Source of the DNA: a virus
Strand: one strand, 5' to 3'
Virus record (IMG/VR): IMGVR_UViG_3300030106_001923
Span: 1 to 31,095 of that record
DNA: 31,095 nucleotides
Positions 2,774 to 29,775 of this stretch are shown here, piece by piece. How positions within the stretch are numbered: position 1 is the stretch's first letter; the number at the start of each line of letters is the position of its first letter. Both the position numbers and the translations under genes were made by a program. The notes under the pieces were generated by a model. It was not told the origin of the DNA. It saw nothing but the letters and a program-made list of their open reading frames with translations, and made no database searches.

Positions 2774-4176
2774 ATGATGATATTTTAATTACATATAAGT
2801 ATCCAGATGGGACTCCAACTGATCCTCTACCACATCAGCAGGAATATCATTTATATACAGGTTGGAGCAAGCATCATTTGCTTGCAGGCAGTTTAGGTAC
2901 AGGAAAGACCGAGGCCATGTGCATGGAAGCTATTCAACAGAGTGCAGCGTATGAGAATAACTTAGGACTTATGGGACGAAAAGTATTAGATGCGTTCAAA
3001 AAATCAACATTGATTCAACTCCTGGACTTAGCAGGTGGTTTTGTTTCCAAGCACAGGTCTCAAGATAGAGAGATCATCTTTAAAAATGGTTCAAGGATCG
3101 TGTATATGGCCTTAGATGACTCTAGGGACTCGATACAGCGTATTAAATCGATGAATCTAGGGTGGTATGCCTTTGACCAGTTAGAAGAGGTTTCAGAGAG
3201 TACATTTATTGCTGCGGCAGGTCAGCTAAGGAAGAAAGGTGTTATGCGTTGTAGTTTCCATACTTGCAACCCTGCAGGACATGATTGGGTATGGAAGAAG
3301 TTCAAACAACATAAAGAAAAGCAAAATAAGACAAAAGGTGACTACAGACTGATAGAAACTCGTACTTGGACACCAGATGTACCTCCACCTGAAACAGACG
3401 AAGAAGTCAAGGTTTATAGCGATAACCCACATCTCCCTGCAGACTACATCAAACATTTACTCTCCATGCCTCCGATGTGGGTTAATCGTTATGTGTATTG
3501 CAGTTGGGACGATTTTGCAGGTCTGGTCTATCCGATGTTTGACGAAAAGGTTCATGTGATAAAACCCTTTGAAATGCCCAAGTGGTGGAATAGATATGTG
3601 GTTTACGACTATGGTTACAAAAACCCGACCTGCATACTCTTTGCAGCCGTAGATGACGAGAAGAATATTTATGTGTATGATATAATTTATGGCGATGAGA
3701 TGCGTATAGATGAGATAGTGCCGATGGTAGAAGATAGATTGGAAACTGGTATGAACTATGAATTTATCGCAGATCCTTCTATCAATAGGACGGAGAGGGA
3801 CGGTTATTCTATTGCCGATGAGTGGGAAGAGTATGGCATACAGTGGGAGAGAGCTAATAACGACAAAAGAGCAGGATTTGATAGGGTAGCACGCTACTTA
3901 ACAACAGATAAGAACGGACATTGTCAATTAAAGTTCTTTGATGTCAGGAATATGGGATTCTTATTAGATGAGATGATGGATTACAAATGGAAAGAATTAA
4001 AACACGGGCATAGTGAAAAAAGCGCACCAGAAGAGCCTGTAAAGAAAAATGACCACGCTATGGACTGTGTTAGGTATCTAGTTCATGCTGTTGAAGGTGC
4101 GAATAAACCAAAACGCAGGGATTCGTACAGAACTCCTAGTTTCTTTAGACAAGCAACAAGTTGGATGGGTACATGA
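2770..4176 (+). CDS. terL: Terminase large subunit (ATPase-nuclease)
   Basis: The motor that translocates DNA into the prohead and cuts it. The N-terminal ATPase has a Walker A GSLGTGKT at residues 40-47, a Walker B-like WYAFDQLEEV at 132-141 with the catalytic acidic pair E139/E140, and a coupling motif with TCNP at 165-168. The C-terminal RNase H-like nuclease has its acidic residues at D280 (VVYDYGY), D335 (FIADPS) and D428/D432 (NDHAMD). At 468 residues it is of normal full length. It starts by ATGA overlap with the small gene upstream and ends by ATGA overlap with the portal gene. Identification is from motifs plus context and is firm. Confidence 0.95.
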   Translation: MNDDILITYKYPDGTPTDPLPHQQEYHLYTGWSKHHLLAGSLGTGKTEAMCMEAIQQSAAYENNLGLMGRKVLDAFKKSTLIQLLDLAGGFVSKHRSQDREIIFKNGSRIVYMALDDSRDSIQRIKSMNLGWYAFDQLEEVSESTFIAAAGQLRKKGVMRCSFHTCNPAGHDWVWKKFKQHKEKQNKTKGDYRLIETRTWTPDVPPPETDEEVKVYSDNPHLPADYIKHLLSMPPMWVNRYVYCSWDDFAGLVYPMFDEKVHVIKPFEMPKWWNRYVVYDYGYKNPTCILFAAVDDEKNIYVYDIIYGDEMRIDEIVPMVEDRLETGMNYEFIADPSINRTERDGYSIADEWEEYGIQWERANNDKRAGFDRVARYLTTDKNGHCQLKFFDVRNMGFLLDEMMDYKWKELKHGHSEKSAPEEPVKKNDHAMDCVRYLVHAVEGANKPKRRDSYRTPSFFRQATSWMGT

Positions 4177-6035
4177 ACGATTTAGCATATTTACACGAAG
4201 TTTTTCAAGCAATGCAGAGTAGTAATAAGACATTTATGAAAGCTGCAAGAGAATCCATGTATTTTTACACGGGTGGGTACGGAACTGGACAATGGGATAA
4301 TGCTGACATTTCCAAGTTAAGAGCTGAAGGACGTCCTCCTCTTCAGCTTAACATTATTCTTCCGAAGGTCAATCTAGTGACAGGAATTGAACGGCAGGGC
4401 AGAACATCGTACCGTGCCAGACCCGTAGAAATGAATGATGATAATGAAGCTAAGTTAATAACTTCTTTATTATATCATTTAGATAAAAGTCAATCCTTAC
4501 ATAGTGTATTTAGTCGTGTATTCAAAGACGGTGTGATTACAGGTAGAGGATGGGTTGATATGTCGGTTGAACCAGGAGAATACTTTGATAGTAAGATACA
4601 TATTAAAAGAGAGTCGTGGGCCAATGTACTAATGGATCCCGAAGCTACTACTCCTGATTGTTCACAGTGGGCAAGATTAGCTCGTACCAAACTATTATCT
4701 ATCTCTAAAGCAAAGGATATGTTTCCAGATGCGCTTAGAGATGTTAAAAAAGCTGAAGATATACAAGAGGCATTATTAGGTGAAGAATCGCTTACTAACA
4801 TGGAATTAGGCAGTAAATATAAGAATGTAGACCCTAACTATGGTTTTAGAAGCATGGAAGCCTACAATATGGATGCACATCGTAAGAAGATACGCATTAT
4901 TGAGTTATGGGAAAGAGAGTATGAGAAAGAATTTTATTTGGTCAATCCAAAAACAGGTCGTTTTTCTCAGCAAGGATTTAAAACAAAGCGTAAAGCAAAT
5001 TTAGCGATCAAAGAGTTAATGGAAAGACCTGAGATGGAAGTTGCTCCTGTAGAGCTAAATGTAGTTGCAAAAAGCGTACCTAAGACCTATGTTACTATTT
5101 TTGCAGGTGCTAGGGTGTTACAGGAAAAAACAGCAAATCCATACAGACATAACCAGTTTCCGTTGATACCATTTTTCTATACTTTTGAAGATTATGGTAA
5201 TACAGTGGATACTTTTGGATTGGTAGAAAATTTAAAAGACCCTCAAAGAGAAAAGAATAAGCGTAGGTCACAAGCCTTAGATATTATTAATCGTTCTCCA
5301 AAGGGTGGTGGTATCTTTACAGGAAACAAGGTAACTGCTGAACAGATGAACAGAGCTTCTGCAAACGGGGAATGGATCGGGATTCCTGGTTACAAAGGAA
5401 GAATATCTGATTTTATGAGTCAGTGGTCTAATCAGCATACAGCACTTGTACCAACGATAGCTTCATTTGAACAGCGTAGTGATTTTGATGCAAAGGAGAT
5501 CAGTGGTGCTACAGACCCGATGATGGGTAGGGCAACCTCTTCTACGGAGTCAGGACTTGCTGTACAGACTCGTATTCGTCAGGGAATGAATACTTTGATG
5601 GAGCAAATGGAGAACTTAGACACTTGTAAAAAGAATACACTAGAAATGGCTATTGAAAATATGCAACAGTATTATTCAGTAGAAAAGATACAAAGAATTA
5701 TTGGAGCTGAGTTTGATCAAGTTGAGCCTGAAGAACAGGCAGAAGTAAATCAAATTATCGGCAAATTTTTGGACAACTTCTCAAATATGGAGTTTGATGT
5801 GGTCTTAGATCAAGGTCAAAATACTCCAACAATGAGAGCGTTAATGGCTAACCAAGTTGGGGAATTAGTACGCAATGGGTACGCTAGTTTATTCCCATTG
5901 TTTGTTGAACTATCCGACATGGAAGCATCCGATGAGATACTGGAGAAATTTGAGCAGGAACGCCAAGCTCAAGTCCAGTCACAGCAACAACAACAAAAAC
6001 CCCCACAAATGAGTGGAGAAGGAGTAATGCAATAA
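4173..6035 (+). CDS. Portal protein, P22-like
   Basis: Dodecameric ring at the head vertex through which DNA enters and leaves. The 620-residue size, the position right after the large terminase, and the N-terminal pattern (a YFYTGGYGTGQW segment, then RPPLQLNIILPKVNLVTGIERQ and conserved WANVLMDPEAT) fit the P22-like portal family. The C-terminus is low-complexity and glutamine-rich (QAQVQSQQQQQKPP). The frame is open from a TTG at 4161, but the ATG at 4173 forms an ATGA overlap with the large terminase and is preferred. It ends in a TAATG junction with the scaffold gene. Confidence 0.9.
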   Translation: MNDLAYLHEVFQAMQSSNKTFMKAARESMYFYTGGYGTGQWDNADISKLRAEGRPPLQLNIILPKVNLVTGIERQGRTSYRARPVEMNDDNEAKLITSLLYHLDKSQSLHSVFSRVFKDGVITGRGWVDMSVEPGEYFDSKIHIKRESWANVLMDPEATTPDCSQWARLARTKLLSISKAKDMFPDALRDVKKAEDIQEALLGEESLTNMELGSKYKNVDPNYGFRSMEAYNMDAHRKKIRIIELWEREYEKEFYLVNPKTGRFSQQGFKTKRKANLAIKELMERPEMEVAPVELNVVAKSVPKTYVTIFAGARVLQEKTANPYRHNQFPLIPFFYTFEDYGNTVDTFGLVENLKDPQREKNKRRSQALDIINRSPKGGGIFTGNKVTAEQMNRASANGEWIGIPGYKGRISDFMSQWSNQHTALVPTIASFEQRSDFDAKEISGATDPMMGRATSSTESGLAVQTRIRQGMNTLMEQMENLDTCKKNTLEMAIENMQQYYSVEKIQRIIGAEFDQVEPEEQAEVNQIIGKFLDNFSNMEFDVVLDQGQNTPTMRALMANQVGELVRNGYASLFPLFVELSDMEASDEILEKFEQERQAQVQSQQQQQKPPQMSGEGVMQ

Positions 6036-7334: not shown

Positions 7335-8333
7335 ATGGCAGCAAATTGGGCATCAGGCCTACAGGTTTCACGATGGGCGAAAGAACTCCAGAGTGAAATT
7401 AGTAAAGGGGTTTACTTTAGTAAATTCATGGGTGAAGGGCCAGGAAATGCTATTCATGTCAAGCAAATGGAAGAAGGCAAAGGTAAAGATGTTACTTTTG
7501 GTTTTGTTTCTCAGCTTACAGGAAGTGCAATTACTGGTGATTCATCATTAGAGGGAAATGAGCAATCGTTATCTACTTACTCAAATACAGTTAGTACCAA
7601 TCAAAAAAGATTAGCTGTAAGAGACACAGGTAAATTTACGAATTCTAAAGTGCTTTATGATTTCAGAAGCACTTCCCTAGATCTTCTTAAAACACAGTAC
7701 GCAGAACTTATCGATGCTGATATTTTCTCTGCACTATCTCCAACAAGTGGTACTCATGCGTATTACAGAGCAGATGCTTCTGCTTCTGTTTATGCTTCCA
7801 GTGATCCAAAGGCAGATTTAGCTGATGGTGATGATATTACTTTAGCTGATATTAGTGCAATGAAAACACTTGCTCAGATAGGTGGAGCAGCTAACTACAG
7901 AATGAGACCAATTCGTGTAGACGGTGACGACTACTATGTATTGGTAGTGCATCCTGAAGTTGCTTACGACCTATTTGAATTAGATGAGTTTCAGCAAATT
8001 CAGCGTGAAGCTCAAGTTCGTGGTGATAGTAACCCATTATTTAAAGGTGCTTTAGGTATTTATAATGGAGTTGTTATTCACGCTCACGAAGGTGTTCATA
8101 TTGGTTCAGATGCAGGTTCAGGCAGTAATGTTGAATTTGCTAGAAACCTTTTTATGGGCGCACAAGCAGCTTGTTTTGCAGAATCCTCTGATATGTTCTG
8201 GGTTGAAAAAACCTTTGATTATGGAAACCAACTTGGTATTTCAGCATCAAAGATTTTTGGTGTAGACATTTCAGATTACAATAATAAAGATGTTGGTGTA
8301 ATTCAATATCTTTCATCAAGGACTAATCTGTAA
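7335..8333 (+). CDS. Major capsid protein, N4 gp56-like family
   Basis: The main shell protein of the head. Its 332 residues contain the family pattern KGKDVTFGFVSQLTGSAITG, then SLEGNEQSLS, and NQKRLAVRDTGKFTNSKVLYDF around residues 95-115, which I recognise from the N4 gp56-like (DUF4043) capsid group with the HK97 fold. A central VLVVHPEVAYDLF segment and a C-terminal strand region follow. The start has GGAGTC upstream. It lies directly before a strong terminator, as expected for a highly expressed late gene. The pairing of this capsid type with a P22-like portal is mosaic but not rare in environmental podoviruses. Confidence 0.9.
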   Translation: MAANWASGLQVSRWAKELQSEISKGVYFSKFMGEGPGNAIHVKQMEEGKGKDVTFGFVSQLTGSAITGDSSLEGNEQSLSTYSNTVSTNQKRLAVRDTGKFTNSKVLYDFRSTSLDLLKTQYAELIDADIFSALSPTSGTHAYYRADASASVYASSDPKADLADGDDITLADISAMKTLAQIGGAANYRMRPIRVDGDDYYVLVVHPEVAYDLFELDEFQQIQREAQVRGDSNPLFKGALGIYNGVVIHAHEGVHIGSDAGSGSNVEFARNLFMGAQAACFAESSDMFWVEKTFDYGNQLGISASKIFGVDISDYNNKDVGVIQYLSSRTNL

Positions 8334-8381: not shown

Positions 8382-9260
8382 ATGACCTTATCAGAAATAA
8401 CAACAGAAGTCAGAAATATTACAGGTGTAGACTCTACATCTGTTTTAGCTGATTCAATCATACATGACCTCATCAATGAAGGTCATTTTCAGCTTTGTGA
8501 TGAAGCTAATTTATTACAAGGATATGCAACTCGTAATTCAGTTATAGATCAGAGTGAATATCAAATGAAAGACAGTAATACATTAGTTACGGACTGGACA
8601 TTAGATCAGAATAATTTAGACGGTGCAATCAGCACAAGTCTATCATTAGAGTCAATGACTCGTATATATAGAGTAGATTATGATGGTAGCATTTGTCAAA
8701 GAATTGGTATCAATGAAATCAATGATATTGCAGATGATTCTTCATTAAGTAATATTACTACAGATAAAGCATTTTACATCCATGAGGATAAATTAGGAAT
8801 ATTTCCTACTCCTACTGAGGTAAAAGAAATAAAAGTATATTATTATTATGTACCACATAAAATGTTTATTGATTCTACAGTTGATGTTTCAAGTGGCTCT
8901 ACAGATGTAACGATGGATTCAACGGCTGATGTTAGACCAGGTATGTCAATAGTAGGTGCAAATATTGCAGATAATACTATTGTAAGAAATATTACTAATT
9001 CTACTACTATCGTTATTACAGCTAATGCTACAGGAACAGCATCTAATCAATCGGTTACTTTTGGCAAACCAGAGATAGATGAGCGTTATCAAAGAATATT
9101 AATTTACTATCCTTGTTGGAGAGTTTCAGAAAGACTTAGAGACTTAAATTTAATTTCATATTTTAAAAATGAATGGTTAGAGCAAAAACAGCGAGTAATA
9201 CTTGAAAGACAGTCCAGAGATGGAAGTACAGTTCTAACTGTTCCATATAACGACTTTTAA
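8382..9260 (+). CDS. Head-tail adaptor (connector) protein with inserted beta domain
   Basis: A 292-residue protein after the capsid gene, placed as the ring that joins portal to tail nozzle. The helical N-terminus (LSEITTEVRNITGV ... IIHDLINEGHFQLCDEAN) and the C-terminal helix (ERYQRILIYYPCWRVSERLRD) fit the tail-tube A/gp4-like connector type. Residues about 165-228 are different: threonine-, serine- and valine-rich, with VRPGMSIVGANIADNTIV, resembling the short beta repeats found in many phage surface proteins, inserted between the two helical parts. The gene ends in a TAATG junction with the next. Role by context and fold pattern; not proven. Confidence 0.7.
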   Translation: MTLSEITTEVRNITGVDSTSVLADSIIHDLINEGHFQLCDEANLLQGYATRNSVIDQSEYQMKDSNTLVTDWTLDQNNLDGAISTSLSLESMTRIYRVDYDGSICQRIGINEINDIADDSSLSNITTDKAFYIHEDKLGIFPTPTEVKEIKVYYYYVPHKMFIDSTVDVSSGSTDVTMDSTADVRPGMSIVGANIADNTIVRNITNSTTIVITANATGTASNQSVTFGKPEIDERYQRILIYYPCWRVSERLRDLNLISYFKNEWLEQKQRVILERQSRDGSTVLTVPYNDF

Positions 9261-12400: not shown

Positions 12401-13213
12401 ATGGATAGAAAAGAATTTGAGCAAGAGATTTTAAAAATAAGAAGATCTGTTTTGCCTGATAGCATGAAAGAAAAATTAGAAAGAGAATTTCGAGCTAATT
12501 TTGAAATGATGCAACAGTCAGGTGCTACTCGTGACCCAGAGACAGGTTTATTTCGTGCTTTAGATGGTAGACTATATCAGACAATAGAAGAAGTCGATAG
12601 AAGTAACGAAGAGCTTCGTAGAAGGCAACAACTTGAAGAAACAAGAGGTGAAGCACAAGAGCAACTTGGAGAACTTGAAAGTCTTATCAGAAGGTCTGGA
12701 GCAGCTCAAAGACAAATGGCTGAAAGAGTGGGTGCTAGGCAAACAGGACAACTATTGAGTCAGTTAGAGCGTAGTATTCTAGGTGCAGGAGGAGATGCTC
12801 AAGCACTAGAAGCTCTTACTCCTGGTGTTCAAGAAAGAGCAGAAAGAAGTTTATTAGATAGGCTTACAGGTATAGAAGCGCAAACTGCACAACAATTACA
12901 AAGAGTTCCTCAGTTAGCTTTAGGTCAAGCTACTACTATGGCAGGTTTACAGCAAACACAACAGCAGATACAAGATCAAATGGCAAGAGCTATAATGGGT
13001 GAAGAAACTAGAAGAGCGCAGATACAAGCAGAGCTAGATAGTCAGCCAGAATGGTGGGAAAGTATCTTAGGTGCTGCAGGTACAGCAATCGGAACTGCAG
13101 TTGGTGGGCCAGTAGGTGGAGCGATTGGTGGCGCATTGACAGGTGCATTTACACGACAACCTCAATCCACTACGACAATAGGTTCAAGTCCAGTAATATA
13201 TGATAGTTTTTAG
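12401..13213 (+). CDS. Internal virion (ejection) protein, putative
   Basis: A 270-residue protein, predominantly helical and rich in Gln, Glu, Arg and Ala, with long coiled-coil stretches (RRRQQLEETRGEAQEQLGEL; QTQQQIQDQMARAI). It ends in a glycine-rich hydrophobic segment at residues 220-250 (ILGAAGTAIGTAVGG and onward) that could insert into or cross a membrane. Such a build, together with its place between nozzle and polyvalent protein, is typical of podoviral core proteins ejected with DNA. AAAGGA lies before the ATG. No enzyme motif seen. The function is inferred. Confidence 0.65.
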   Translation: MDRKEFEQEILKIRRSVLPDSMKEKLEREFRANFEMMQQSGATRDPETGLFRALDGRLYQTIEEVDRSNEELRRRQQLEETRGEAQEQLGELESLIRRSGAAQRQMAERVGARQTGQLLSQLERSILGAGGDAQALEALTPGVQERAERSLLDRLTGIEAQTAQQLQRVPQLALGQATTMAGLQQTQQQIQDQMARAIMGEETRRAQIQAELDSQPEWWESILGAAGTAIGTAVGGPVGGAIGGALTGAFTRQPQSTTTIGSSPVIYDSF

Positions 13214-13222
13214 GAGTAAATA

Positions 13223-14053
13223 ATGGCTTTTAAATTTAAAACAAAGAAAAGACCAACAGCAGCACAAGCCTTTGCAGGTGGATTCGCTCAAGGTGCAATA
13301 AAAGGATTGCAAGAAGGCGCAGAGAGAAGTTTACAAGATAGATTAAATCAACAAGAAGCATTTAAAGAGTTTCGTAAAGACTTTTCTCAATCTATTAATT
13401 ATATTGATGTAAGTGATGAAGATAGAAAAATATTGAGGGATACTCAATCTATGATGTTAATGGGTACATTAAAGAATAAAGATGAAGTTGTTACTCACTT
13501 AAATGCTAAGTCTCCTAACTTAGGCTTTAAGATAACTGGAGCATCTGCTCCAGAAGTAATAGGAGGTGTAACTAGTGGTTATAGTACATTGCAGTTTATA
13601 GATGGTAAACCTGTTGTTAAACAAATTACAGACCCAGTAGAATCTCCTTTTTCGAATCAAATTTTATTGACAAAAACTAGCCCTACAGGTGAAGTTACAA
13701 AACAATTTGTCGAAAAGTCGATGTTAAAAGATCCTGTAATAACTAAAGAAGCACAACTTGATAAACCTAAAAAAGCAAAAACAGTAGAAGAAAAACAACT
13801 TGAATTAGCTCAAAAAGAAGTAATCAGAAATGCAACTGAAGAGGGTATTTCTATTGAAGGTTATATGGAAAAATATGATGGACAACCAGAAGTAGAGCTA
13901 CTAAAACAATTACAAAAACAAGAACAAGAAGTTGTTCCTGAGTCTACTAGCGTTCAACCTGCACCAATGGGACAAGAGGGTTTAACTATTGTAAATCCAA
14001 CTACGGGTGAAAGACTAATATTGAAAGATGGTAAATGGCAACCAATCAAGTAA
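13223..14053 (+). CDS. Internal virion protein, putative (276 aa)
   Basis: A TAGGAG site precedes the ATG. The first 30 residues are basic then glycine/alanine-rich (FAGGFAQGAIKGLQEGAE), followed by charged helices and a low-complexity, lysine/glutamate-rich linker near 180-240. The end, TGERLILKDGKWQPI, is a short motif that I associate with phage ejection proteins, where it may dock to a partner. The gene overlaps the next by 19 bases. Together with the 270-residue protein upstream and the protease downstream, it probably forms an internal core or ejectosome. Confidence 0.6.
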   Translation: MAFKFKTKKRPTAAQAFAGGFAQGAIKGLQEGAERSLQDRLNQQEAFKEFRKDFSQSINYIDVSDEDRKILRDTQSMMLMGTLKNKDEVVTHLNAKSPNLGFKITGASAPEVIGGVTSGYSTLQFIDGKPVVKQITDPVESPFSNQILLTKTSPTGEVTKQFVEKSMLKDPVITKEAQLDKPKKAKTVEEKQLELAQKEVIRNATEEGISIEGYMEKYDGQPEVELLKQLQKQEQEVVPESTSVQPAPMGQEGLTIVNPTTGERLILKDGKWQPIK

Positions 14054-17000
14054 TACCTCCCTTACCAAAAGGTTTTGTATTAGAATCTGAAATACCTCCT
14101 TTACCAAAAGGATTTGTATTAGAAGATGATTCTGATATAAAAGTTGATACTGTTAAAACAAAGGTTGAAGAGCCAAAAAAAGAAAAACCAGATAAAGTTG
14201 AACCTGGATTAAGAGTAGCTCCAAAACCTACTTTTGGTCAAAAGTTTAAATCATTTATAAGAGGAATGTTTGAAGATGATTTAACTACTAATGTTAAGAG
14301 TCAAATGATTTATCAAATAAGTAAAGATACTGGTAAATCACTTCAGGAAGTTTCTAAAGATTATAATAAATTAATTCGTGATCCAAAAATCACAGGTATT
14401 AGACCAGAACCTACAGTAATGGAATCTGCAGAACTAGCCTTTACTGGTGCTGTGGCTGCAGGACTATCTACCAATCCAATAACAACAGGTTTGGGAGTTG
14501 CAACTTTTATGGCACTTGATGAAGCAGAAAATGCTATTATATCTGGTGTAACGGAAGGTAAGTATGAATTTGGTGGTGGTAAAAATATTGCAGATCTATT
14601 ACCTGAAGATGCTACAAGGACTTCAAGAGAAGTAGTAGAAATATTAGATTTTATTGGAAAAGGAATGGTTGTTGGTAAGATTACTCCTAAAGCTAGACAG
14701 CAGTTCAAGAAAGCATCCGAGTTTGTTACTAAGCAGTTTATTAAAGAATATAAAATGCCTAAAACTGTTTACATGGATGCTAATAAGGTTAAATCAATTT
14801 TAAGAGGTAGTGACAAAGATGTAATTAGTAAATCTGAAAAAGATTTATTATTAGATTTAAATCTTAAAGGGCCACAGTATAGAAAGGCTATTAGAGATGG
14901 AATATCAATAGAAATACCTGCTGAAAAAGTAACAAAAATGGTTGATAGACCGTGGTGGGGTCAGGTTAAAGAAGTATTTAAAATACCTAAAACAGATCAA
15001 GTTATTGGTGTGGAAAGATTTGGTGAAAGAAAGCAAACTGTAAGAGGATTGTTAAAAGAACCAGAATTTAAAGTTTCTGAAACTCAAGAACTTAATTCGT
15101 TAGTAGAGAATTTTAATAGCACTTATAAAAGGTTATTTCAAGAGGGTAGAACAAATACGCAGTTATTACAAGACCAAAAAGCAATATTAAGATTAAGTAA
15201 GTTAATAAAAGAAATAGACCCAAAATTTGAAGCTCCTGAAATACCATTTGAGTCTGATTTAAATCAAGTTGATGGTAGCTCTTTAAGGCAAGCTAACATA
15301 GATGCAATAGAAAGAAATCAACACTTTAGTGAGACTAAGGCTGCTAAAGAAAGAGTAGAAGGTATAGAAAAAATAAGCAGAGCTGATATTACTCAGTTTA
15401 TGAGAAATGCTTTTAAAGCTACTATTAGAGGTAAAGCAACAAATAGAATGAAAGGTGTAGCAGGTTTTTTTAGACCAGATAAAAAAACAGTTAGATCAAA
15501 AGTTACAGATGATATATATGTTTTATCGCATGAGATAGCACATTTTATAGATAATAAAATATGGGGAACACAGCCTAAACAAAGACCTCATTTTAAACCG
15601 TGGCAACAAGAACTTGGTAGATTAGATTATGACCAGACAAAATTAAGAACAAGTGAAGGGTTTGCTGAATTTATTCGCCATTTTGTTAGTACAGGTAAAG
15701 CTCAAGAACTTGCACCTAATTTTTATGATTGGTTTACAAATGATTTTGCAAAACAAAATAAACAAATATATAATAATATATTAAAGCTAAAAGACTTAAT
15801 GACTCGCTATAATAAGCAAGGTTCGGTAGATAGAGTAAAGTCTCAAATTAATTTTGAAGGCAGACCTCCTGAACAACCTTTAATAGAAAGAGCAAAAGAT
15901 ATTAGTTTACGATTTAGAGAAAATTTTATAGATGATTTAGCTTTTTTAGAGGATGTTTATAAAAGAGAAGGTATTAAAGGACTGGATCCTGCTGAAGATC
16001 CGTTACAACTTATGAGAGTCTTTAAAGGCAAGGCTCGTAGTAAAGCAGAATATGCGATTAGAGAGCATACTATAGATTATGTTGGTAGGATTACAGGTGA
16101 TGGTTTAGTAAAAGTATTAAAACCAGTTTCTAAAAATAAAAAAGAATTACAAGATTTTTTAGCTTATGCTTATGCTAGGAGAGCTTTATCAAGACCAGAT
16201 ATTGATGCAGGTATAGAAATTTCAGATGCACAATTTGTATTTGATAAGTTTGATAGTAAAAAATTCAGAGAAGCTAGTGATAATTTAAGTGCTTTTGCCG
16301 ATAGAGTTTTAGAATACTATGTAGATTCAAGAGGTATGAGTCCTGAAACTAGAAATAAAATTAAAGAATTAAATCCAGTATATATTCCTTTATATAGATT
16401 TTTTACACAAGAACCAAGATTTAGATCTCAAGCAAAACAAGTTAGTGGTGGTAAGCCTATTAAAAAATTAAAAGGTAGTGGTAGGCAAATATTAAATCCT
16501 ATTGAAAGTATGGTTAGATATGTAGAAAACATATATTCTGCAGGAGACAAAACAAGAGTAGCACTAGCTTTAGCAGACTTAGCAGATCGCAACATATTAC
16601 CAGGTGGATTAATAGAAGAAGTCCCTCCACCGATAAAAACTCAGACAATGAGTACAAAAGCTCTTCAAAAAGAATTAGAGAAAAGTGGTTTTGGTATATT
16701 TAGATTATTTGAAGAAGATGCTTCAATGATGCCAGATATGATTACAACCTTTATTGCAAGTAAACAGTATAGTGGCAAAGATAATATTATTCCAATATAT
16801 GAAGGTGAGTCTGTAAAATTTTATGAAGTAGATCCAAGATTGTACAAAATGTTAAAAGGACTAGATCAATTACAATTAAACCCTGTAATTGATTTTATGT
16901 TAGGTAAACCAACTAGAATGATTAAACTAGGTGCTGTGGGTTTAAATGCTGCATTTAGTTATATTAGAAATCCATTTCGTGACTTAGTAACATTTTCAAT

Positions 17001-18318
17001 TTTTAGTAAAAATAAAGTCCCTAATCCTGCTGCTCCAATGATTGGTTTAGCTGCAGATTTAGGTTTAGGAACAAAATCTGCTAAAGAAGCATCTAGGTCT
17101 TTTAAAGCAATGGGTGGGAACTTAACTACTTTAATGGGACAAGATAGAACAACTGGTTATCGTAGAATAGTTGCAGATGTATTAGCACAAGCTCAAGGAG
17201 GTGTTAAAGGTAATGTAAAAAATATAGCTCTACATCCTATTCAAGCATTGAGAAAAGTTTTTGAAATACCAGAGCTTGCGCCAAGAATTGCAGAGATGCA
17301 GTCTAGAATTAAAGCCTATGAAAAAATATATGGAAAGGATTCAGATGCTGCTTATATAGCTGCTTTTAATGATGCTCAAGATGTTACTATAAACTTTAGT
17401 AAGATGGGTTATATATCTCAATATTTAAATCAAATGTATGTTTTTTTTAATCCTATTATTCAAGGTGGTAATAAGTTATATAGAGAGGCTAAAAATAATC
17501 CTATTAAATTATTAGTAAGAGGTATATCAGCAATTACAGTTCCTGCTTTATACAGTTGGTATCAAAACAAAGACAAAGAATGGTTTAAAAAACTACCATC
17601 AGAATTAAAATATTCACATATTTATATTGATAAATCAGATTTTAGCGATAGTGATGATATTATAACCTTACCTTTACCACATGAGCTTGGTACTTTATTT
17701 GGTGGATTACCTATGTCTTATTTTGATGAAATGTATGAAATAGACCCTGAAGCTACTGATAAATCTTTAAAACTAATGATAAAACAGTTAAATCCTGGTA
17801 ATCCAGTTACTGATTTATCATTAATAAAACCTTTTATGTTAGTAGCTTCTAATAAGACTTGGTATGGTGCGCCCTTAGAAACAATGTCTATGCAGAGAAA
17901 AGAAATACCAGACAGATATAATGATTATACAATGCCAATAGCAAAAGAATTAAGTAGAGCTATTTATGATAATTTTGGTGCTTTTGAATATGCGTCACCT
18001 GTAAAAATAGAAGCATTTTTAAATACATCAACTGGTGGTTTGACAAAAAATATTAATGATATTTTACAATATACAAATAAAGAAATAGAATCTAAAGCTG
18101 ATATACCAGTTGTTGGTAAGTTATTTTTAAGAAAAGAGTTGTATGAACAAAAACCAGATTTAGATTTTGATAGATTGAATTTACTGAGACAGAAAAAAGT
18201 TAGTAAGACATTAAATACTCCAGAACTAAAAAGAGAATTAAGACAGTTAGAAAGAGAATATGATAAATATGTTAAACAGCGTAGAATAAGAGAAAGAGAA
18301 GCAAGACTAAAAAAGTAA
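14035..18318 (+). CDS. Polyvalent internal virion protein with zinc metalloprotease motif
   Basis: A 1427-residue protein. The N-terminus carries a tandem repeat: IPPLPKGFVLE at 7-17 and again at 20-30. Around residues 490-550 a gluzincin-like motif is visible: HEIAH at 499-503 (two histidine zinc ligands and catalytic E500), followed by SEGFAEF at 540-546, whose E541 or E545 could be the third ligand. The region about 1000-1250, with a central FFNPIIQGGNKLYR near 1135-1148, resembles the LPD38-type domain of large polyvalent phage proteins; a hydrophobic stretch near 1157-1175 follows. The C-terminus is a basic coiled coil (RELRQLEREYDKYVKQRR). The start overlaps the preceding gene by 19 bases. 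It is probably packaged in the head and delivered with DNA to act on a host protein. Confidence 0.8.
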   Translation: MATNQVIPPLPKGFVLESEIPPLPKGFVLEDDSDIKVDTVKTKVEEPKKEKPDKVEPGLRVAPKPTFGQKFKSFIRGMFEDDLTTNVKSQMIYQISKDTGKSLQEVSKDYNKLIRDPKITGIRPEPTVMESAELAFTGAVAAGLSTNPITTGLGVATFMALDEAENAIISGVTEGKYEFGGGKNIADLLPEDATRTSREVVEILDFIGKGMVVGKITPKARQQFKKASEFVTKQFIKEYKMPKTVYMDANKVKSILRGSDKDVISKSEKDLLLDLNLKGPQYRKAIRDGISIEIPAEKVTKMVDRPWWGQVKEVFKIPKTDQVIGVERFGERKQTVRGLLKEPEFKVSETQELNSLVENFNSTYKRLFQEGRTNTQLLQDQKAILRLSKLIKEIDPKFEAPEIPFESDLNQVDGSSLRQANIDAIERNQHFSETKAAKERVEGIEKISRADITQFMRNAFKATIRGKATNRMKGVAGFFRPDKKTVRSKVTDDIYVLSHEIAHFIDNKIWGTQPKQRPHFKPWQQELGRLDYDQTKLRTSEGFAEFIRHFVSTGKAQELAPNFYDWFTNDFAKQNKQIYNNILKLKDLMTRYNKQGSVDRVKSQINFEGRPPEQPLIERAKDISLRFRENFIDDLAFLEDVYKREGIKGLDPAEDPLQLMRVFKGKARSKAEYAIREHTIDYVGRITGDGLVKVLKPVSKNKKELQDFLAYAYARRALSRPDIDAGIEISDAQFVFDKFDSKKFREASDNLSAFADRVLEYYVDSRGMSPETRNKIKELNPVYIPLYRFFTQEPRFRSQAKQVSGGKPIKKLKGSGRQILNPIESMVRYVENIYSAGDKTRVALALADLADRNILPGGLIEEVPPPIKTQTMSTKALQKELEKSGFGIFRLFEEDASMMPDMITTFIASKQYSGKDNIIPIYEGESVKFYEVDPRLYKMLKGLDQLQLNPVIDFMLGKPTRMIKLGAVGLNAAFSYIRNPFRDLVTFSIFSKNKVPNPAAPMIGLAADLGLGTKSAKEASRSFKAMGGNLTTLMGQDRTTGYRRIVADVLAQAQGGVKGNVKNIALHPIQALRKVFEIPELAPRIAEMQSRIKAYEKIYGKDSDAAYIAAFNDAQDVTINFSKMGYISQYLNQMYVFFNPIIQGGNKLYREAKNNPIKLLVRGISAITVPALYSWYQNKDKEWFKKLPSELKYSHIYIDKSDFSDSDDIITLPLPHELGTLFGGLPMSYFDEMYEIDPEATDKSLKLMIKQLNPGNPVTDLSLIKPFMLVASNKTWYGAPLETMSMQRKEIPDRYNDYTMPIAKELSRAIYDNFGAFEYASPVKIEAFLNTSTGGLTKNINDILQYTNKEIESKADIPVVGKLFLRKELYEQKPDLDFDRLNLLRQKKVSKTLNTPELKRELRQLEREYDKYVKQRRIREREARLKK

Positions 18319-27876: not shown

Positions 27877-28344
27877 ATGAAGAACAAGAAACAAGTATTA
27901 ATAGGCTTAGAAACCGAAAGAAATTTTATTGATTTTATAGAGAATCTAGGTTTCAAAGGAATAAAGGTAGGTGCAGCCTATGATATGCACCATCATTTTG
28001 ATGTAAATATCTCTGCTAACATAGAGATAAAAGGTATGAAAGCACTTCGCAGAGGAGAAGAAGTGCAGGATGAATGGCATTGGATAGAGGTCAAAGGTGT
28101 AGCAGATGATGGGTGGCTATACAATTCTCACGCTGATATGATCGCATTTGAGACCAAAAATAGTTGGATACTTGTTAGGCCTAGAAATCTTATTGACTAT
28201 GTGCAGAGATTTGTGGCACATGAATATGTTGATAATCCAATTCAAGCACAATATAAATTATATAAAAGACCTTACAGAGATGATGCTATTACTTTGATAC
28301 AAAGTGATGACTTGAGACACATAGGTGTAGAATGGAAAAAGTAA
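27877..28344 (+). CDS. PD-(D/E)XK-like nuclease (155 aa)
   Basis: The frame is open from 27826, but that would start inside the terminator; the ATG at 27877 with GAGGGAAC upstream is preferred. The pattern ETERNF (12-17), HHHFDVNI with D42, then IEIKG with E50 and K52 (a second ExK, IEVKG, at 70-74), and WILVRPRNLIDYV suggests the small restriction-endonuclease fold. Phage proteins of this kind cut or repair DNA, but the specificity is unknown. It overlaps the next nuclease-like gene by 13 bases, so the pair is probably co-translated. Confidence 0.6.
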   Translation: MKNKKQVLIGLETERNFIDFIENLGFKGIKVGAAYDMHHHFDVNISANIEIKGMKALRRGEEVQDEWHWIEVKGVADDGWLYNSHADMIAFETKNSWILVRPRNLIDYVQRFVAHEYVDNPIQAQYKLYKRPYRDDAITLIQSDDLRHIGVEWKK

Positions 28345-28733
28345 TCCATACTATACACAAGGGCTTTATTGGAGAGATAGCAGTGATAAAAGATGTAGTG
28401 TCAAATTATCCAAATTATAATGTATTCAAACCTATTATCGATGAGCGAGGTTGTGATCTTATTGTTGAAAGAAGAAAGAAAGAGTATTTAAGGGTACAAG
28501 TAAAGACCATCATTGATATGAAAACTAAGACATCTATTGAAGTTCGTTTAAATAAATACAAGAATAAAGATTTAATAGACATAGTAGCAGTTTACTATGC
28601 AGAGAAGGATATGGTTTGCTATGTACCATATGAGAATGAGAATAGCATTAACCTGGCCTTAAAACCAAGTAAGAATAATCAAACGAAGAACAGAAGGTTC
28701 TTCTATCAATACATGGAGTTTCCCGTTGAATAA
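28332..28733 (+). CDS. PD-(D/E)XK endonuclease, group-I-intron/resolvase-like (133 aa)
   Basis: A 133-residue protein with a compact core: KGFIGEIAVI at 10-19 (E15), GCDLIVER with D42, and RVQVKT with Q56 and K58. This is the arrangement of the PDDEXK_5-type endonucleases and archaeal-type Holliday junction resolvases, in which glutamine replaces the usual second acid. The C-terminal half is basic (PSKNNQTKNRRFF) and may hold DNA. It overlaps the nuclease-like gene upstream by 13 bases and the methyltransferase-like gene downstream by eight. Confidence 0.65.
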   Translation: MEKVIHTIHKGFIGEIAVIKDVVSNYPNYNVFKPIIDERGCDLIVERRKKEYLRVQVKTIIDMKTKTSIEVRLNKYKNKDLIDIVAVYYAEKDMVCYVPYENENSINLALKPSKNNQTKNRRFFYQYMEFPVE

Positions 28734-29352: not shown

Positions 29353-29510
29353 TGCGAGTAACTGAGTTCATTGACCTTATCACTAGGAAAGAATTACCAG
29401 AGGAAGATATTTATTCTCATTTAGAATACAGAGATGAGGAAGGACTTTTATTACCAAAGTATAAAGAATTACGGAAGGAATACAGGAAGTTATATGGCAA
29501 ACAAAAGTAA
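29352..29510 (+). CDS. Tiny hypothetical protein (52 aa)
   Basis: Starts in a TAATG junction with the methyltransferase-like gene and overlaps the next gene by 17 bases. The 52 residues are charged and helical (MRVTEFIDLITRKELPEEDI; KYKELRKEYRKLYGKQK). The basic C-terminus overlaps the start region of the resolvase-like gene. No family recognised; gene status rests on coupling and frame. Confidence 0.55.
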   Translation: MRVTEFIDLITRKELPEEDIYSHLEYRDEEGLLLPKYKELRKEYRKLYGKQK

Positions 29511-29775
29511 ACAAAAAGGGAATCGTTTTGAATATGAGTGTGTTAAAGTGCTAAAAGAATTAGGCTATGAAGATGTGGAAAGAGCCTATGGAAGTAATGG
29601 ATTGAGTCTACCAGGATGCAAGGAAGATGTTGATATACTTGCAGATGGAGTGAAGATTCAATGTAAAGTAAGAAGTAATGTCCCTAAGTGGCTTAGTTTA
29701 GGCACTTGCGACTGGGTACTATTTAAAGAAGATAGAGGTGAAATCTATAAAATAACGAGGTTAAAGGATGAATAA
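29494..29775 (+). CDS. Holliday junction resolvase-like PD-(D/E)XK nuclease (93 aa)
   Basis: The frame is open from 29434, but the ATG at 29494 with AGGAAG upstream gives the typical start MANKSKQKGNRFEYE. Visible core: KGNRFEYECVKVLKELG at 8-24 (E13/E15), a short YGSNGLS, EDVDIL with D45/D47, and KIQCKVR with Q56 and K58. This matches the small archaeal-type Hjc/resolvase layout. Phage resolvases trim branched DNA before packaging. At 93 residues it is near the minimum for this fold, with no extra domain. It overlaps both neighbours. Confidence 0.7.
   Translation: MANKSKQKGNRFEYECVKVLKELGYEDVERAYGSNGLSLPGCKEDVDILADGVKIQCKVRSNVPKWLSLGTCDWVLFKEDRGEIYKITRLKDE

Follow-up and report, generated by a model that had tools for sequence, protein, structure and literature searches.

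We analysed a 31,095-nucleotide stretch of viral DNA (IMG/VR record IMGVR_UViG_3300030106_001923, from an uncultured virus), hereafter the window. On its + strand, positions 14035-18318 hold an uninterrupted frame from ATG to stop that encodes 1427 aa. This frame, its HEIAH...EGFAEF motif, its LPD38 region and a tandem IPPLPKGFVLE repeat were all present where a preliminary description of this DNA had put them. The features of the locus and the evidence for each are as follows.

4161-6035, + strand: P22-like portal protein (PF16510, E=3e-97)
7335-8333, + strand: major capsid protein (PF13252, E=4.6e-46)
8382-9260, + strand: SU10-type head-tail adaptor (PF24175, E=2.4e-9)
12401-13213, + strand: 270-aa Ala/Gln-rich protein in the gp7 slot, C-terminus Gly-rich and hydrophobic (Kapi1 gp7 match)
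13223-14053, + strand: 276-aa ejection protein in the gp20 slot (C-terminus like that of Kapi1 gp20, E=3.7e-7)
13985-14050, + strand: proposed docking partner, the upstream ejection protein's C-terminal motif TIVNPTTGERLILKDGKWQPIK (motif comparison)
14035-18318, + strand: 1427-aa large ejection protein in the gp16 slot, polyvalent with zincin and LPD38 (ORF, Pfam, gene order)
14053-14085, + strand: tag copy 1, IPPLPKGFVLE, residues 7-17 (sequence; kept in close relatives)
14092-14124, + strand: tag copy 2, IPPLPKGFVLE, residues 20-30 (sequence; kept in close relatives)
15337-15768, + strand: predicted M34-like zincin metallopeptidase domain, residues 435-578 (invariant residues, AlphaFold2, Foldseek, VIA)
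15529-15543, + strand: predicted HEIAH zinc-binding and catalytic motif, residues 499-503 (sequence, relatives' alignment)
15655-15672, + strand: EGFAEF, residues 541-546, helix presumed to supply the third zinc ligand (alignment, AlphaFold2)
17575-18078, + strand: LPD38 domain, residues 1181-1348 (PF18857)

The gene order is terminase, portal, probable scaffold, capsid, SU10-type adaptor, 981-aa protein, 270-aa protein, 276-aa protein, 1427-aa protein and LamG tail fibre. The 270-, 276- and 1427-aa genes follow the P22 order gp7-gp20-gp16, and the match of the 270-aa protein to Kapi1 gp7 (E=1.5e-6) was obtained with composition correction off. The 276-aa and 1427-aa genes overlap by 19 bp, and the gp16-slot gene of the lederbergviruses Kapi1, SEN22 and E212 overlaps the gp20 gene by 16 bp. 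Given the P22-like gene order and the similar gene overlap, the 1427-aa protein is most likely the third and largest ejection protein of a P22-like podovirus. The locus shares its gene slot, gene order and adjoining P22-like portal and adaptor genes with P22 gp16/gp20 and Sf6 gp13/gp12. The earlier suggestion of an injected virion protein is backed by this location in the gp16 slot. The neighbouring portal, major capsid and adaptor genes point to a virion protein, which the short-tailed virus probably injects into bacteria as a payload of the ordinary kind. In sequence comparison, P22 gp16 had no significant similarity to the 1427-aa protein (best E 0.074). Therefore, its placing in the gp16 slot rests on position and on the terminal connector described below, and we did not file it as a gp16 homologue but describe it as probably working like gp16. 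No homologue was found in bacterial or archaeal genomes.

The profile search turned the formerly LPD38-like region into a firm LPD38 match (E=4.6e-24; score 86 bits, cut-off 27), and LPD38 was likewise matched in three relatives (L011, L012 and L014). We compared 19 close relatives, three of which are truncated loci (L016, L018 and L019). Every full-length close relative retains both tag copies and HE[IV]AH...TSEGFAEF. Modules of 100-300 aa are inserted between the tag and the zincin, and also near residue 340, in L010-L017; these modules had no clear Pfam match, with one weak winged-helix match in L011. Elsewhere in the window, the early region encodes a PD-(D/E)XK nuclease at 28332-28733 (PF11645, E=3e-11) and has a weaker PDDEXK match at 29434-29775.

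The predicted zincin domain

AlphaFold2 modelling of residues 399-643, with core pLDDT mostly 70-93, was in keeping with a zinc site around HEIAH. The model consists of a helix (H37-62), three strands (E65-68, E79-82 and E87-90), the HEIAH helix (H96-112) and the EGFAEF helix (H141-154), which is the zincin MPTase core of an N-terminal helix, three strands, a HEXXH helix and a Glu helix. The closest solved structures were lethal factor and PPEP-1 (Foldseek E 0.05, probability 1.00), and VIA gave them Z 7.6 and 7.4, below the Z 8 caution line. These M34 peptidases have a similar zinc motif and may share the predicted fold of the domain, but they have only about 20% identity with it and the Pfam match falls short. 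The search for toxin metallopeptidase families gave 14.2 bits for Pfam ATLF here and 18.1 in L014, against a gathering score of 27.4. Since the score is below the cut-off, we labelled the domain 'M34-like' and not a member of M34.

His499, Glu500, His503, Asp506 and EGFAEF are unchanged in 26 aligned relatives, at identities down to 23%. E541 is presumed to be the third zinc ligand, judging from its spacing and from comparison with PPEP-1. A remote relative of 3743 aa (L053) retains HELGHFLD...EEGFAEF. The invariant Asp506, three residues past HEXXH, matches a trait of the widely distributed phage MPTase clade. The conserved histidine at the end of strand 2 of that clade is absent; GF[FY][RS]P stands there, with no other invariant histidine. 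Given this absence, we did not file the domain in the clade of Iyer et al. (2017), which has the strand-2 histidine (PMC5512222), whereas the 1427-aa protein has Arg or Ser.

The predicted zincin, resting on invariant residues, a zincin core and M34-like matches, is likely a zinc protease and may be active. The earlier claim of an active zinc protease is supported to that extent. The protease and LPD38 parts belong to a known kind, the phage polyvalent proteins. According to Iyer et al. (PMC5512222), zincins are the commonest domain of polyvalent proteins, LPD38 is a phage-only domain and the likely zincin functions are self-processing and, less often, host targeting; the protease part is therefore already known in kind. 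The same paper describes large multi-domain phage proteins with LPD38, predicted co-delivery with the DNA, and a zincin whose HEXXH is followed at three residues by Asp and further along by Glu, all as here. The searched passages of that paper hold no description of terminal tags.

As to its substrate, we infer that the M34-like zincin would most likely process the polyvalent protein itself and free its modules; cutting of a host protein is possible. The preliminary description had raised the possibility that the protease enters with the phage DNA and cuts a host protein at once, as an anti-defence effector. The active site is indeed invariant in the 26 relatives, and such an action is proposed for some polyvalent-protein zincins in PMC5512222. 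However, the experimental precedents in that paper (processing of P1 DdrB; N4 vRNAP packaged whole) favour processing or no cleavage. We consider self-processing at least as likely as immediate cleavage of a host defence protein, and such an effector unlikely; the analysis turned up nothing that speaks for or against an anti-defence role.

Paired termini of neighbouring ejection proteins

The tandem tag pattern occurred once in the window and in 0/100 dinucleotide shuffles. We scanned IMG/VR with back-translated tandem patterns and found 68 in-frame stretches at 13-residue spacing and 93 at 14-residue spacing, whereas out-of-frame controls, in which the pattern was moved by a single nucleotide, yielded 1 and 0 stretches, respectively. 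These counts indicate that the tandem is not due to chance. Nearly all tags start within about 3-16 residues of the ORF start, mostly in two copies and in three or four in some proteins. In very diverse viruses, the tandem PxGFx[LV][DE] fronts proteins of 32 body clusters without mutual BLAST similarity at 1e-5, and a Pfam search of 33 tagged proteins found no family in more than one. The tag peptide had no sequence match among solved structures. A literature search on the motif found no relevant paper; older papers on P22 mosaicism may contain related remarks.

The first hint of a partner came from the C-terminus of Kapi1 gp20, NPKTGQKLIYRNGQWQPM, which resembles that of the protein upstream of the tag in the window, NPTTGERLILKDGKWQPIK (E=3.7e-7). 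The C-terminal motif TNPxTGxxixxxxGxW was present in 120 of the 125 ORFs directly upstream of a tag, against 29 of 1123 other ORFs at the same loci, and about ten of these 29 were themselves partners missed by the adjacency filter. The expressions for the C-terminal motif were composed after examples had been seen, and the contrast far exceeds any tuning of them. We designated this combination, a tandem PxGFx[LV][DE] N-terminus with an upstream C-terminus TNPxTG..GxW, as class A; the pair in the window belongs to it. Subtypes within class A (form of the C-terminal motif against D or E in the tag) co-varied weakly (Fisher p = 0.03, uncorrected for relatedness), and we gave this no weight as evidence. 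A variant of the motif, STDGGKTWxP (e.g., L125, L154 and L180), resembles a single sialidase Asp-box/BNR hairpin. In an AlphaFold2 model of an L154 read-through of the neighbouring genes (stop as Gln), the C-terminal motif folded into a small beta-meander (pLDDT 80-86), and the tags were placed at a low confidence of about 60 (pTM 0.34, five sequences), so that the model neither revealed nor excluded their binding to it. No natural gp20-gp16 fusions were found among the loci.

Other phages carry other pairs. In class B, gp20 of Sf6, HK620 and CUS-3 ends in FSSLWGD and gp16 starts with MAKAWKDVIASPQYQAL...YFxEVVAP. In class C1, the P22 gp20 end SYTSKSGIKFTVE goes with a 29-residue start of P22 gp16. 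Subclass C2 pairs [KR]xLx[YF][ND]xxGxLE with DGxxxxFPDGTxxxVIxxAM, and class D, of the BA3-like phages, pairs NDPLG[IL]R with YSDIPxEQFNQKIGF. We predicted class B from Sf6/HK620 and class C1 from P22 before making fresh scans from the N-terminal motif; among the matches listed, the upstream ends were found as predicted. The pair matched in 111/116 cases for class A, whose expression is loose and matches class B tails too, and in 17/17 for class D. Among the matches listed, the figures were 47/47 for class B and 27/29 for class C1, both samples being mostly of related enteric phages, and 17/20 for C2. Altogether, none of the 229 non-redundant pairs (for B and C1, among the matches listed) was demonstrably mismatched, and the end of one class stood beside the start of another in 0 pairs among the matches listed. 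Among the ten non-matches, six were motif variants missed by the expression. The wrong upstream ORF had been chosen in L107, the partner lay slightly further upstream in L071, and in L063 it was separated by an ORF. L441 is the sole unexplained exception: its start is of class C1 and the upstream ORF has an unrelated end, possibly through a frameshift. A further class may exist in L025 (2999-8427) and L027 (3344-8682), namely Pelagiphage HTVC034P and Manatee Spring podovirus, where a repeated AG[FY][ST]xxEIxxW opens the large protein and PGExxxxYLKRxG lies near the end of the upstream one.

Both ends have also been exchanged together while the bodies stay related. In P22 and SEN22, residues 1-200 of gp20 are 98% identical and the last 35 only 9%; for gp16, residues 1-35 are 29% identical and residues 36-130 72%. 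Alone among the BA3-like phages, L042 has a tandem LPEGFxL on the large protein and the upstream end ...GNILVYTNGQWVPEQ, on related bodies. The Pseudanabaena phage Pan3, found by a search from the C-terminal motif, has the reverse arrangement. Its upstream ejection protein ends in APAPPPGFVMDN (PPPGFVMDN), and the next protein (L459 6004-8844), in which a region like the gp20-type C-terminal part is fused to a gp16-type body, starts with MQEGATATNPQTGERVVLRGGQWVP. The two motifs have thus exchanged proteins in Pan3, with reversed polarity, in this one genome. A linked DNA cassette does not explain this exchange.

Proposed docking and its alternatives

We infer that the tandem repeat is a docking tag for the C-terminus of the gp20-type protein. 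After ejection, or perhaps already in the head, each copy would bind the beta-meander (TNPxTGxxLxxxxGxWxP) at the C-terminus of its upstream neighbour, the tunnel-forming gp20-type protein, and would so keep the payload protein attached to the end of the trans-envelope conduit. On this view there are at least five classes of matched terminal connectors that exclude one another, and the pair in the window represents one of them; such classes would let bodies mix while partners stay compatible. T7 offers a precedent for such a contact: within its periplasmic tunnel, gp15 is stabilised at its C-terminal region by the N-terminal part of gp16 (PMC8954989). The T7 ejectosome differs in its large structured interface, the lack of a short tandem tag and unrelated sequence.

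Genetic work on P22 bears on the same contact. When P22 carries the Sf6 version of only one of the two proteins, gp16 or gp20, its particles are non-infectious; with the Sf6 versions of both it infects, so partners must match. Removal of the final 33 residues of gp20 is likewise lethal, and the authors concluded that the two proteins must interact, either within the virion or in the course of delivery (PMC10883804). The terminal class is A in the window virus, C1 in P22 and B in Sf6, HK620 and CUS-3. Since P22 is of class C1 and Sf6 of class B, their incompatibility is what the class code predicts. In the same study, Sf6 gp16 entered P22 virions without its partner. Thus, the gp16/gp20 pair is not needed for packaging there, and docking probably matters after assembly. 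P22 injects about 12 gp16 and 30 gp20 (PMC8402733), a ratio with which two to three tags on each gp16-type protein would agree, although this is only suggestive.

We also considered that the termini do not touch and are co-inherited because their overlapping genes form a single DNA segment that is exchanged as one block, each terminus binding something else (portal, scaffold or host factor). Among the 97 class A gene pairs measured, 90 overlap and 7 abut, and gp16 and gp20 are known to undergo mosaic exchange (PMC10883804). Because all 97 pairs overlap or abut, physical linkage explains part of the co-inheritance. However, the overlaps range from 25 to 1 bp, which argues against a single cassette. 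In L063, the partners are kept although not adjacent (a 228-aa ORF stands between the upstream 379-aa partner ORF and the tagged ORF). Moreover, the Pan3 motifs sit on exchanged proteins, the 229 pairs, among the matches listed, lack a demonstrable mismatch, and single replacements in P22 are dead. Linkage as the full explanation is therefore unlikely in our estimate. The intervening ORF of L063 starts with MTLPFEQLIANQIRQESG, which looks like a transglycosylase start.

A signal for packaging in the procapsid, comparable to the capsid targeting sequence of T4, would suit a tag that is short and at the extreme N-terminus. The matched partner of the tag is, however, the adjoining ejection protein, and P22 packages Sf6 gp16 without its partner (PMC10883804), so we regard this reading as unlikely too. 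The preliminary description had proposed a docking or processing signal, and the docking half now has a likely partner. Cleavage at PPLP by the protein's own M34/PPEP-like protease, removing the tag after docking, was rejected as very unlikely. In its favour, the zincin is as similar to Pro-Pro endopeptidases as it is to lethal factor, and PPxP tags occur in 31/35 of this protein's family (far more commonly than in other tagged families). However, the protease and PPxP are not tied to each other (PPLP tags without any HExxH in L121, a zincin without PPxP in L042, and PPxP tags in several zincin-less families).

Tag docking, matched connector classes and a self-processing zincin, taken as a whole, form the best explanation, and we hold it with fairly good confidence. 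Gene order, motif pairing, joint swaps, reversed polarity and the invariant zincin residues are established by computation, whereas the binding itself, its timing and the substrate of the protease are proposed. For its general part, we think it probable that matched gp20-type and gp16-type termini form a modular connector code of at least five exclusive classes, polarity-reversible in class A, which permits free body swaps and explains the P22/Sf6 incompatibility. Such a code between ejection proteins appears undescribed so far. Modular polyketide synthases offer an analogy, with unrelated sequences and biology: in their docking domains, the C-terminal element of one protein is matched, in a class-specific manner, to the N-terminal element of the one that follows. 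In P22-like phages, gp16 and gp20 are among the most variable virion proteins.

The finding bears on how ejection proteins find each other in a transient conduit. If it is true, compatible ejection proteins would be predictable from sequence, and the gp16-gp20 contact would be open to peptide tests. The tag would annotate otherwise unrecognisable payload proteins, marking the gp16 slot in 32 unrelated body clusters. Finally, the published, unexplained incompatibility of P22 and Sf6 would become a specific prediction, in which combinations from one class, for example Sf6 gp20 plus HK620 gp16, should be functional.
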